From Burkholderia contaminans (GTDB lineage Bacteria > Pseudomonadota > Gammaproteobacteria > Burkholderiales > Burkholderiaceae), in NCBI RefSeq assembly GCF_029633825.1, contig NZ_CP090641.1, positions 310,001-374,000 of the forward strand: DNA of 64,000 bases, written 5' to 3'. Positions 34,399 to 37,599 of this stretch are shown here, one piece after another. The translations under genes and the position numbers were made by a program. Position 1 is the stretch's first letter. Every line of letters starts with the position of its first letter. The notes below the pieces were generated by a model. That model was not told the DNA's origin and did no database searches. It was given only the letters and a program-made list of their open reading frames with translations.

Positions 34399-34428
34399 TT
34401 GACGTGGTGCGCGCGCATCGTGCATGAT
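34399..34428 (+). promoter_or_regulatory. Promoter for threonine-leader transcript
   Basis: TTGACG (34399-34404) and CATGAT (34423-34428) lie 18 bases apart. Transcription would begin near 34435, at or next to the ATG of the leader peptide, so the leader could be translated from a leaderless or nearly leaderless mRNA. Confidence 0.4.
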
Positions 34429-34434
34429 CGCTCC

Positions 34435-34521
34435 ATGCGCCACATCACGACCACCACCTCGACCACGACGCGCACGACCGCCTTCGGCGGGCTCGTGCGG
34501 CGAGTGCGCGCAAGGTCGTAG
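34435..34521 (+). CDS. Threonine-rich leader peptide (28 residues)
   Basis: A short ORF that reads MRHITTTTSTTTRTT and continues AFGGLVRRVRARS. Nine of residues 5-15 are Thr, encoded by ACC and ACG. The shape recalls the E. coli ThrL leader (which starts MKRISTTITTT). No strong ribosome-binding site precedes it. It lies between the MFS gene and an isochorismatase-family gene, ahead of hairpins that can form exclusive structures, as in ribosome-stalling attenuation. It would sense charged threonine tRNA. Confidence 0.6.
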   Translation: MRHITTTTSTTTRTTAFGGLVRRVRARS

Positions 34522-34571
34522 CGCCATCCCTCACAGGCCCCGCCGGTTCCGGACGGGGTCTTGTCGTTTCT
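34478..34571 (+). promoter_or_regulatory. Attenuator-like alternative hairpins
   Basis: Segment 1:2 is CCGCC-TTC-GGCGG (34478-34490), inside the end of the leader ORF. Segment 3:4 is GGCCCCG pairing with CGGGGTC (34536-34560) with an inner CCG stem and GTTC loop, followed by TTGTCGTTTCT, a terminator. GGCGGG (34486-34491) can instead pair with CCCGCC (34539-34544), which would break both. This is the 1:2, 2:3, 3:4 layout of a classic attenuator. A ribosome paused on the Thr codons near 34447-34479 would free segment 2. Confidence 0.5.
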
Positions 34572-34602
34572 CCGTCCGTACCGGTCACTCAGGAGAAACG
34601 CA

Positions 34603-35145
34603 ATGTCCGAAGTCTCTTCCCCGAAACGCGCACTGCTCGTCGTCGACATGCAGGTCGGCCTGTTTCACGGCCCCGAGCGTCCGTACGACGGCGAACGCGT
34701 GCTCGCGAACATCAACCGGTTGATCGGTCGCGCGCATGAAGCCCGTGCGCCGGTGTTCGCCGTGCGTCACACCGGGCCGGCCGGTTCACCGATCGCACCC
34801 GGAACGCCGCTGACCGCGCTGGTGCCGGCACTCGCGATCGATACGGCGCGCGACACCGTGTTCGACAAGACGCGGCCGAGCTGCTTCGCGGGTACGCGGC
34901 TCGCCGAATGGTTGCGCGAAGCCAGCATCGGCGAGATCGTCATCGCGGGAATGAAGACCCAGTACTGCGTCGACACGGCCTGCCGTGCGGCCGCCGATCA
35001 CGGCTTTCGCGCGGTGCTCGTGACCGACGCGCACACCTGCATGGACACGCCGGAACTGCCGGCCGAGAGGATCGTCGCGCATCACAACGCGACGCTTGGC
35101 GGCCCGTTCGCGACGCTGACGACGACCGACGCGTGCGTGTTCTGA
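34603..35145 (+). CDS. Isochorismatase-family cysteine hydrolase
   Basis: A 180-residue hydrolase. ATG 34603 follows CAGGAGAAACGC. The catalytic triad of the family is visible: Asp in ALLVVDMQVGLF, Lys in VFDKTRPSCFAGT and Cys in IAGMKTQYCVDTACRAA. Members hydrolyse isochorismate, nicotinamide or other amides and carbamoyl compounds; the substrate here is unknown. It stands downstream of the threonine leader, which is unexpected for this family and could hint at a link to threonine metabolism. A decayed second copy follows. Confidence 0.85.
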   Translation: MSEVSSPKRALLVVDMQVGLFHGPERPYDGERVLANINRLIGRAHEARAPVFAVRHTGPAGSPIAPGTPLTALVPALAIDTARDTVFDKTRPSCFAGTRLAEWLREASIGEIVIAGMKTQYCVDTACRAAADHGFRAVLVTDAHTCMDTPELPAERIVAHHNATLGGPFATLTTTDACVF

Positions 35146-35262: not shown

Positions 35263-35302
35263 GATGCTCGACGTCTCTCAGCAATACGCCTCATTGGCTC
35301 CA

Positions 35303-35500
35303 CCGGTTCCAGACGGGGTCTTTCCGCGTCTCCGTCCATACCGATCACTCTCGAGAACGCGATGGCCGATCCGCTATCTTCAACACGCACTGCCCATCAG
35401 CGACACGCATGCCGGGATGCTTTACGGCCTCGAACGTCCATACGAAGAGAAACGCGTGCTCGCCAACATCACCCTGCCGATCCCGTCCCGCGTCGGCGGC
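35303..35500 (+). pseudogene. Decayed copy of the isochorismatase-family gene and its 5' region
   Basis: This segment aligns to 34543-34740 with an offset of about 760 bases. CCGGTTCC-GACGGGGTCTT, TCTCCGTCC-TACCG-TCACTC, the start codon region (ATG at 35362), GGCCTCGAACGTCCATACGA and AACGCGTGCTCGCCAACATCA all have counterparts in the intact copy. Indels destroy the frame and the 3' two thirds are missing. The attenuator terminator stem is weakened by substitutions. Confidence 0.75.
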
Positions 35501-35802
35501 TACCGCCTCGACTTTATCTCGACGAGCCGCATCTTGAATTTCACAGTGCGAAACATATTCACGCCGAGATTGAAGGAACGACGGCTGACGCCAAAATCCG
35601 TCAATATCGGTTACTGAATATCAATCGCATGCGAATGTAAGCGGCTTTTTCCCGCCGTCGTGCAGTTACCGTAATCGCATCGGACTCATATTTTGGCGTC
35701 GGACTATCGGGCTGCGAGAACTCGGAGAATGAAGATTCGACTACGATGACCGTTGGATAATACGACGCACGTCGTGACCTGCAGGGCCTCACGACGTTGA
35801 AT

Positions 35803-37599
35803 ATGCACGACAAGCTGCGCGGCTACTATGAACAGGAACTGGCGAAGCTGGAAAATCAGTTCGCAACCTTCTCCAACGAATATCCACGAATTGCCGCCCG
35901 CCTGAGCTTTACAGGCGGACAGACGGACGACCCGCACATCCAGCGGATGATGCAGGCATTCGCGTTGATTGCAGCCGAAATCCGGGCCAACCTGGACGAC
36001 GGCGCACCGAAGTTCACCGAAGCGCTGCTTCATGTCTTGCACCAGCACTACTTGCGACCGTTCCCCGCATGTTCGATCGCTCGCTTCGATCCGATCAAGG
36101 AATTACCGGGCAAGCCGGTCGTCTTGCCGCGTGGCATGGAGCTCACGTCGCGCGGCGGGGAAGTTCGCTTTCGAACCGCTTATGACGTAACGCTTGCGCC
36201 GATCCGCATCGCAAACGCTCAATTCTCCCGCAGCACCGTCGCACCGGCACAAGTCGCATTGCCGCCGAACACAACCAGCTTCATTTCTATCACGATTGAG
36301 CCGACGGTCGCCGCCTCGCCGCTCGGCGCCGTTTCGCCCGACACGCTGCGCGTCCATTTCGCTGGAGAACGCCAGACCGTCGTCGCGCTGCTGGATACGG
36401 TCCTGCTGCGCGTCCGGGGCGCATTTGTCGAAGCGGACGACAGTGGACGGTGGTTGCCAATTGCAGGGATACCGGTCACTCCGGTCGGGTTCGGCCCGAA
36501 CGATATGCTGCTGCCGCCGTCGCAAAATTCGCCGCTGGTTCAATCGCTGCTGGAATACGTCGGATTTCCGGACAAGTTCGATTTTGTCGACATTCATTTA
36601 CGCCGATGTCTTAAACCCGACCAAATGAATCGCGCGCGGCGATTAACTCTGCATCTGGCGATCGAAGGTATGCACGCCGATTCGCGGGTCGCGCAAGCGC
36701 TCACCCCGCTATCGGCGGACAACATGGGATTGTTCTGTACACCAATCGTGAACCTTTTTAAGCATATGGGAGTGAAGTCGTCGCGCGGCGAAATCGTCGC
36801 AGATTATCCCGTAGTGCCGAAACCGAGCCGACCAGACATACGCGGCATCTATTCGGTTGATGCGGTTCGCGATCTGTCAGACGGGATCGCTATTCCGCCG
36901 CTGAATGCATGGGGCATCGGGGCCTGCGAACGGTTCTGGATCACGCGCCACGATCCCTACGCGGCAATCCATCAACCCGGACGTGAAACGTCGCTCGTAC
37001 TGCTACGAGCGGACGGGACAGCGGTGGCGAAAACACCGCTGCAATTGAGTGCAGACCTCACCTGCACGAATCGCGACTGGCCATCGCGGATGCGGATCGG
37101 CTCCCTCAAGGGCGATCTGAAAAACGAAAACGATCAAGTGCCTTGCAGGATTACGCTGCTGAAACAGCCGACGCCGACCTATAGCGCGTCCCGTGAGTCG
37201 GAAGCGCAGTGGCGCGTGCTCGCACTGACGACAGCCAACCTGACGCAGTTGACACGCGGGGGGTGGCCGGACTTCGTGAAACTTATGCGCCAACTTGCAC
37301 CGAGCGACCGACGCGCCGAACACGTCGGGGCGATTTCGTTCGTCAAGCGAAACGTCGTCGAGAGACTACTGGCGATCAAGCCGCATTCGGCCCTAGTGAG
37401 AGGCTTCGAAATTGTGATGGCGGCAGATGAGAGGGCGTTCATTGAAAACAGCATGGGTACGCTGATCCTTCTGCTCGACCTATACCTGTCGCGGTACGCG
37501 CCAGCCAACAGCTTCACCCAGCTCGTCGTCCTGTCGAAGAACGACGGCTCCGTGATCGTTCGTTGCCCGATGCGGCCGGGCCTCGCGCCGCTGTTGTAG
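35803..37599 (+). CDS. tssF: Type VI secretion baseplate subunit TssF (orphan)
   Basis: A 598-residue protein of the ImpG/VasA family, which with TssK, TssG and TssE forms the T6SS baseplate wedge. ATG 35803 gives MHDKLRGYYEQELAKLE, the family start; a TTG two codons earlier is possible. NEYPRIAARLSFTG, DDPHIQRMMQAFALIAAEI, LRPFPACSIARF and the C-terminal LYLSRYAPANSFTQLVVLS...MRPGLAPLL are characteristic. No tssG, tssE or other core gene lies in the window, so it is detached from a full T6SS locus. It is convergent with a PAAR gene, with only two bases between stops. Confidence 0.9.
   Translation: MHDKLRGYYEQELAKLENQFATFSNEYPRIAARLSFTGGQTDDPHIQRMMQAFALIAAEIRANLDDGAPKFTEALLHVLHQHYLRPFPACSIARFDPIKELPGKPVVLPRGMELTSRGGEVRFRTAYDVTLAPIRIANAQFSRSTVAPAQVALPPNTTSFISITIEPTVAASPLGAVSPDTLRVHFAGERQTVVALLDTVLLRVRGAFVEADDSGRWLPIAGIPVTPVGFGPNDMLLPPSQNSPLVQSLLEYVGFPDKFDFVDIHLRRCLKPDQMNRARRLTLHLAIEGMHADSRVAQALTPLSADNMGLFCTPIVNLFKHMGVKSSRGEIVADYPVVPKPSRPDIRGIYSVDAVRDLSDGIAIPPLNAWGIGACERFWITRHDPYAAIHQPGRETSLVLLRADGTAVAKTPLQLSADLTCTNRDWPSRMRIGSLKGDLKNENDQVPCRITLLKQPTPTYSASRESEAQWRVLALTTANLTQLTRGGWPDFVKLMRQLAPSDRRAEHVGAISFVKRNVVERLLAIKPHSALVRGFEIVMAADERAFIENSMGTLILLLDLYLSRYAPANSFTQLVVLSKNDGSVIVRCPMRPGLAPLL

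Follow-up and report, generated by a model that had tools for sequence, protein, structure and literature searches.

In the attenuator of the Escherichia coli thr operon a leader ORF rich in Thr codons is followed by alternative hairpins and an intrinsic terminator, and in Gram-positive bacteria aminoacyl-tRNA synthetases are under the control of the T-box. The element reported here lies in a window of 64,000 nucleotides (the whole stretch of Burkholderia contaminans DNA that was analysed) and resembles the former (RF00506) in that a short Thr-rich leader ORF leads into possible alternative hairpins and an intrinsic terminator, but it precedes a hydrolase or a threonyl-tRNA synthetase (ThrRS) instead of thrABC, is probably leaderless and carries two extra helices, PD and a hairpin over the Shine-Dalgarno (SD) sequence. 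With the T-box it shares the service of genes that restore tRNA charging, extra synthetases included, whereas the sensor in the Burkholderia element would be a translated leader.

Sensing of uncharged tRNA is described in passages of PMC3766115, which also present the target operons of amino acid attenuators as highly conserved and the genes concerned as mostly encoding biosynthetic enzymes. A further point of comparison is trpL of Sinorhizobium meliloti, in passages of PMC7298713 a ribosome-dependent attenuator whose RNA begins at the leader AUG; it has Trp codons and a biosynthetic operon, whereas the Burkholderia element has Thr codons and a hydrolase. Rfam gave no match in the window and, across 16 related loci, none to this element, RF00506 and T-box included, and among the matches listed from the main texts of the open-licence literature we did not find the element described. 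We interpret the locus as an attenuator of the ribosome-mediated kind, which would sense how well tRNA-Thr is charged and set the expression of a stand-alone isochorismatase-like hydrolase accordingly, a reading to which we assign a probability of roughly 0.87.

Layout of the leader region

The features of the locus are collected in Table 1. The sequence-only reading had pointed to nine Thr in residues 5-15 of a 28-codon ORF placed behind a promoter-like element; direct reading of the sequence confirmed the former, the latter is present and conserved, and six bases separate the -10 hexamer from the leader ATG. As in other amino acid attenuators, the gene is preceded by a short ORF in which codons for a single amino acid are repeated, and an intrinsic terminator lies between the two. 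What follows is not a threonine-making gene, as it would be in an attenuator of thr biosynthesis, but a member of PF00857 here and ThrRS in related copies; the Pfam match bears out the earlier assignment of the downstream gene to the cysteine hydrolases.

Table 1. Features of the Thr leader and hydrolase locus (positions in the window)
Feature	Position	Strand	Remarks
Promoter	34399..34428	+	-35 TTGACG 34399-34404, 18-nt spacer, -10 CATGAT 34423-34428; kept in 13 aligned loci; predicted function
Thr-rich leader ORF	34435..34521	+	28 codons, ATG 34435-34437, TAG 34519-34521; peptide MRHITTTTSTTTRTTAFGGLVRRVRARS
Hairpin 1:2	34471..34499	+	34471-34482 with 34486-34490 and 34493-34499; left arm in last Thr codons; -20.0 kcal/mol
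Possible antiterminator 2:3	34485..34545	+	34485-34491 with 34539-34545; duplex -17.5 kcal/mol in the window
Terminator hairpin 3:4	34533..34564	+	G+C-rich, T-rich tail; -20.2 kcal/mol
Helix PD	34542..34585	+	34542-34547 with 34580-34585; 34550-34556 with 34572-34578
Hairpin over Shine-Dalgarno	34565..34600	+	CGTTTCTCC 34565-34573 with GGAGAAACG 34592-34600; region fold -16.4 kcal/mol
Shine-Dalgarno of hydrolase	34591..34595	+	AGGAG, read directly
Isochorismatase-like cysteine hydrolase	34603..35145	+	180 aa; PF00857 130.3 bits, cut-off 27

In a single sequence the matches to promoter and terminator patterns are at chance level (in a 5-kb stretch, 1 promoter-like site against 0.9 expected and 3 terminator-like sites against 3.3), so the case for the element rests on its conservation. 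These counts would suit an ORF that is rich in Thr by accident and has stems of no significance, as would the longer overlapping ORFs in other frames; the latter were rejected as a conserved feature, the frames being interrupted between species.

Conservation of the leader with the hydrolase

A first search found orthologues of the hydrolase in 12 other genomes (76-94% identity), and all 13 loci could be aligned from the -35 hexamer through the hydrolase start. At an E-value of 1e-40 the hydrolase is present in 43 genomes of a 398-genome sample of the Burkholderiaceae, which together with one further genome from the first ortholog search give 44 family loci. A leader started by ATG and holding at least five Thr precedes the hydrolase in 43 of them, the sole exception being L007, in which ACG replaces the leader ATG and the hydrolase is intact. 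A close hydrolase (E 1e-20) occurs in 8 of 399 sampled genomes of the order, and the Thr leader accompanies it in 8/8. Promoter, hairpins and terminator are conserved together with the Thr leader upstream of orthologous isochorismatase-like hydrolases, and the layout is kept in more distant genera; diverged leaders such as MNAHMLTSTTTTTASGGS and MSSRTFTNTTTPTTAYGGP precede hydrolases of about 59-72% identity. Leader and stems missing from related strains would have spoken against the sequence-only reading; alignment across relatives gave the opposite, both being conserved, and the layout of Thr leader, hairpins and terminator is confirmed as real and as reaching beyond the window. The leader is also present in five genomes without a full-length hydrolase (G011, G018, G020, G027 and G079); by eye, the beginning of the hydrolase gene is destroyed or truncated in them, and the leader ATG is lost too in three of these (G018, G027 and G079).

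The scan of named genomes, comprising the best 80 of 496 relatives, took in Burkholderia, Paraburkholderia, Trinickia, Cupriavidus, Pseudomonas, Serratia, Rahnella, Pantoea, Shewanella, Aeromonas and others. A loose test, requiring an upstream ORF with at least four Thr and any common start, was passed by 75 of these 80 loci, the hydrolase loci of four Aeromonas and one Pseudomonas having no Thr leader by it; control stretches passed it too (31, 14 and 26 of 80), as did a mean of 32.5/80 shuffles. A strict test (ATG start, three Thr inside four residues, at least 16% Thr) was passed by 74 of the same 80 loci, which come from Beta- and Gammaproteobacteria; of the control stretches 1, 1 and 0 of 80 passed, and of the shuffles a mean of 1.5/80. 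Such ORFs are thus nearly absent from control stretches, and a chance origin of the leader, contradicted as well by the synonymous variation of the Thr codons and by the compensatory changes in the helices presented below, is rejected.

Model searches have to be read with more caution. In a class-wide sample of 190 genomes, model R2 had two matches at E 0.001, namely the own genome and one probable false positive, which we take, from a motif, to be the end of a groEL-like gene with its terminator; the element is therefore patchy and weak model hits are untrustworthy. The figures obtained with model R1 at E 0.01 (207/398 and 43/399) include weak matches and do not give the number of true elements.

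When the ORF lists were compared by eye, the gene neighbours of the hydrolase differed between genera, so that leader and hydrolase look like a conserved unit; for the same reason the gene neighbourhood was dropped as a clue to the substrate. This bears on the possibility that what the locus makes for use in trans is the leader peptide, or else the short terminated RNA, and that the hydrolase is merely a neighbour. A precedent exists in the trpL attenuator RNA and leader peptide of S. meliloti, both of which act in trans according to passages of PMC7298713; however, the leader stays with the hydrolase while the other neighbours change, and the residues of the peptide other than Thr diverge freely between genera, which makes this reading very unlikely; a second role, in trans, may nevertheless exist.

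Threonine codons of the leader

Comparison between species brings out the Thr codons themselves. Counted back from the Gly-Gly anchor, codons -8, -7 and -6 specify Thr in 37, 38 and 39 of the 42 distinct hydrolase leaders, i.e. in 114 of 126 cells, with Ser or Ala in only 4, and at each of these positions three or four third bases occur in the Thr codons. Codons -4 and -3, situated inside a hairpin arm, are Thr in 42/42 and invariant in sequence. In the ThrRS-linked leaders, of which 22 are distinct, Thr likewise makes up most of the run and the third bases differ. Thr is kept among relatives while third bases vary, and selection would appear, from these alignments, to act on threonine and not on the RNA alone.

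The hydrolase leaders close their Thr run with Ala, and Ser is frequent in them. According to passages of PMC12121999, chloramphenicol stalling is strongest after Ala, Ser or Thr codons, a preference that such a codon run matches, and the leader could be imagined to sense a ribosome-targeting, chloramphenicol-like antibiotic in place of Thr-tRNA, with the hydrolase as a protective enzyme. We consider this highly unlikely in view of the rarity of Ser and Ala at codons -8 to -6 and of the threonyl-tRNA synthetases found under the same RNA, which a drug sensor does not need and leaves unexplained.

Start of the leader transcript

From the position of the predicted transcript start on the leader ATG it had been proposed that the leader may be leaderless. 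The ATG lies 6-7 nt past the -10 hexamer in 62 of the 67 loci scanned with the promoter pattern (among the other five, four gave no hit to the pattern and one had ACG), and this distance supports the proposal. From the -35 hexamer to the ATG there are 35-37 nt in 66/66 leaders, a set that excludes L007 and L103; of the 71 named loci that the script placed (from the best 80 of 496 relatives), 63 have a distance of 35-38 nt. An SD-like motif was found in front of 0/66 leader ORFs and of 62/63 downstream genes. Because the spacing is fixed and no SD-like motif precedes the leader ORFs, the transcript probably starts on or beside the leader AUG, which would make the leader leaderless. Leaderless transcripts are reported for Burkholderia cenocepacia in passages of PMC4603805. 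As to the scripts, the one used for leaders missed L007 (ACG start) and L139 (offset), the L139 leader being read separately; the one used for named loci placed leader and terminator in 71 of 80 loci, the remainder being without one by its patterns, and its start choices at L263, L285 and L315 look wrong.

RNA helices between leader and hydrolase

Helix PD pairs a terminator arm with the stretch that leads up to the hydrolase and is mutually exclusive with the terminator; it overlaps the SD hairpin at 34572-34573. The T-run of the terminator is imperfect in the window (TCTTGTCGTTTC) and reads TTTTTT in most ThrRS-linked relatives.

The duplex energy of the own arms of each helix was compared with that of arms swapped between types in 59 of the 66 leaders; L111, L115 and L117 (gene start unfound), L134, L137 and L139 (odd or cut) and L094 (arm 2 unmatched) were excluded. 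Own and exchanged arms gave -15.9 versus -14.9 kcal/mol for hairpin 1:2 (0/20000 permutations), -20.8 versus -19.3 kcal/mol for the terminator (p 5e-5), -24.3 versus -19.8 kcal/mol for PD (0/20000 permutations) and -12.6 versus -10.7 kcal/mol for the SD hairpin (0/20000 permutations). Since the permutations leave relatedness in, these figures are to be taken as supports and not as probabilities; as such, they support compensatory variation in hairpin 1:2, the terminator, PD and the SD hairpin, and compensatory changes are found at the base of the terminator stem.

PD was also followed in alignment A6, which holds 28 of the 66 leaders (A3 holds 34), picked for spread. There, 89.2% of cells are paired, against 24-46% when the pairing is slid, and cells with double changes number 15 against 5.0 in shuffles; in the same alignment neither the pairs with double changes (3) nor the further pair types (12) rise above shuffles.

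The three exclusive pairings proposed in the sequence-only reading stood in part. Hairpin 1:2 and the terminator covary, but the antiterminator 2:3 showed no covariation on arm exchange (own -15.7 against exchanged -15.9, p 0.85), and when the window sequence is folded from region 2 on, the structure of minimum energy retains the terminator and not 2:3; this pairing is possible in all 23 types tested, and its arms barely vary. PD and the SD hairpin were two features absent from that scheme, and their compensatory variation suggests that control may be translational as well as transcriptional.

The same RNA chassis before other genes

A second group of leaders, e.g. MNARFVTTTTTTTTTANGGLGGGCTS, precedes in other Burkholderiaceae a truncated ThrRS that has the catalytic core and the anticodon domain and is without the N-terminal domains; the ThrRS of L073, for instance, matches TIGR00418 with 441.8 bits (cut-off 383.65) and, in Pfam, tRNA-synt_2b and HGTP_anticodon only. 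At E 1e-6, DNA of the ThrRS-linked leader had matches in 23 of the genus's 65 genomes. With a loosely defined start motif, the beginning of ThrRS was located in 20 of 23 such loci (not in L111, L115 and L117). The window's own genome gave no match to the ThrRS-linked copy, the weaker model matches there belonging to other classes. Judged from N-termini, L125, L201, L202 and others represent a further ThrRS-linked type, and in one genome (L212, G102) a Thr leader stands before a full-length ThrRS with TGS and SAD domains. It is mainly because threonyl-tRNA synthetases carry the same element that we name the charging of Thr-tRNA as the signal, and this equivalent element supports the response to charged Thr-tRNA that the sequence-only reading had suggested for the hydrolase. 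Threonine-linked metabolism, also suggested there, would be just one among several roles that the hydrolase may have.

Other cargoes were encountered on the same chassis. Thr leaders, e.g. MQRNLIPFVTVITTTTIGNGGTSLMRTR, stand before a 110-aa ABM-domain protein at L225, L226 and L234 (Pfam on L225 and L234), and a Guanidine-I riboswitch (RF00442, 91.6 bits; L225:569-668, minus strand) lies at most 3.1 kb from the Thr-leader/ABM locus of G112. Met-rich leaders, e.g. MNYDARNFMMCTMTANGESWES, precede a GNAT acetyltransferase of about 157 aa (Pfam on two) at L199 (G000:C2:2252043-2252177, in the own genome), L203, L215, L216, L218, L233, L235 and L238, and are possibly a sensor of Met-tRNA. Weaker model matches occur in tandem in the own genome (L200, G000:C2:905152-905297 and 905857-906001) and at L227-L231; their short ORFs have no obvious repeated codon, and some precede a DUF2917 protein (Pfam on L200 and L228).

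The hydrolase

Isochorismatase-like hydrolases act through an Asp-Lys-Cys catalytic triad. Asp15, Lys89 and Cys122 of the hydrolase are invariant in 24 aligned orthologues (alignment A4, which omits the frameshifted hydrolases of L081 and L207), so that the triad is complete. The NCBIfam equivalogs for biuret hydrolase (50.9 bits, cut-off 370), PRK11440 hydrolase (47.3, cut-off 195), nicotinamidase/pyrazinamidase (38.2, cut-off 174) and RutB (27.2, cut-off 377.95) all scored far below their cut-offs. The predicted model (mean pLDDT 89.7) is about as similar to N-carbamoylsarcosine amidase as to other amidases of the superfamily. In the best 50 rows of two structure tables, which include amidases such as N-carbamoylsarcosine amidase (3eef, 1nba), maleamate amidase, RutB and biuret hydrolase, identity to the hydrolase is 18-31%. 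Comparison of folds was discarded as a means of naming the substrate, many amidases matching and none being singled out.

Because extra threonyl-tRNA synthetases carry the same RNA, the hydrolase is most likely part of a response to ThrRS or threonine stress. Natural inhibitors of ThrRS exist, e.g. borrelidin and obafluorin, the latter produced by a Pseudomonas (passages of PMC9880928), and it is tempting to guess that the hydrolase acts against such compounds, which would fit the control that it shares with ThrRS; an activity that frees threonine from a conjugate would fit too.

Some remnants were seen near this and related loci. Just past the hydrolase, 35289-35369 is a decayed duplicate of the terminator, the ribosome-binding region and the hydrolase start (80% identity), extending by eye to about 35460, and similar remnants occur in G018 and G027. 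The hydrolase copies of L081 (G068), L207 (G264) and L139 (G341) are broken by frame breaks or a stop, with the Thr leader still upstream. On the same strand as the hydrolase, 35797-37599 is a T6SS TssF gene (PF05947), for which no link to the leader was seen.

Proposed mechanism and significance

Conservation of the leader, the stems and the Thr codons supports the attenuator reading, and the comparative sequence evidence suggests that the hydrolase would be turned on when Thr-loaded tRNA runs short. The order of events that we infer is the following. Transcription would begin on the leader AUG or right beside it, and the leaderless end would be where a ribosome initiates. With ample Thr-tRNA the ribosome would clear the Thr codons, hairpin 1:2 would re-form behind it and the terminator 3:4 would form; in a variant, where the stop codon falls right after region 2, the ribosome would occupy region 2 and the terminator would again form. 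With scarce Thr-tRNA, a ribosome stalled on the Thr codons would mask region 1 and leave region 2 free for region 3, and the pairing 2:3 would let RNA polymerase read through. In the read-through RNA, PD would take the freed terminator arm and compete with the SD hairpin, so that translation may be opened too. The OFF state would then consist of 1:2, the terminator and the SD hairpin, and the ON state of 2:3 and PD with the SD open.

More speculative, and on balance doubtful, is an extension to a whole family of leaderless attenuators that would serve the response to aminoacyl-tRNA-charging stress in Beta- and Gammaproteobacteria, sharing the RNA chassis and changing the codon cassette and the gene: Thr codons for extra ThrRS and the hydrolase (in a few genomes, for the small ABM-domain protein), Met-rich leaders for the GNAT acetyltransferase, with the hydrolase destroying natural ThrRS inhibitors.

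What is new at this locus is a proposed threonine attenuator, probably leaderless and with extra covarying helices, that is tied to a hydrolase and not to a biosynthetic operon. The association with the hydrolase spans two groups of Proteobacteria and, in the Burkholderiaceae, the element is tied to extra threonyl-tRNA synthetases as well. If the proposed reading is true, it would give an orphan hydrolase a testable function, extend leaderless attenuation to a new setting and provide a candidate, backed by covariation, for combined transcriptional and translational control; the element would also offer a sequence handle for finding bacterial responses to natural ThrRS inhibitors.
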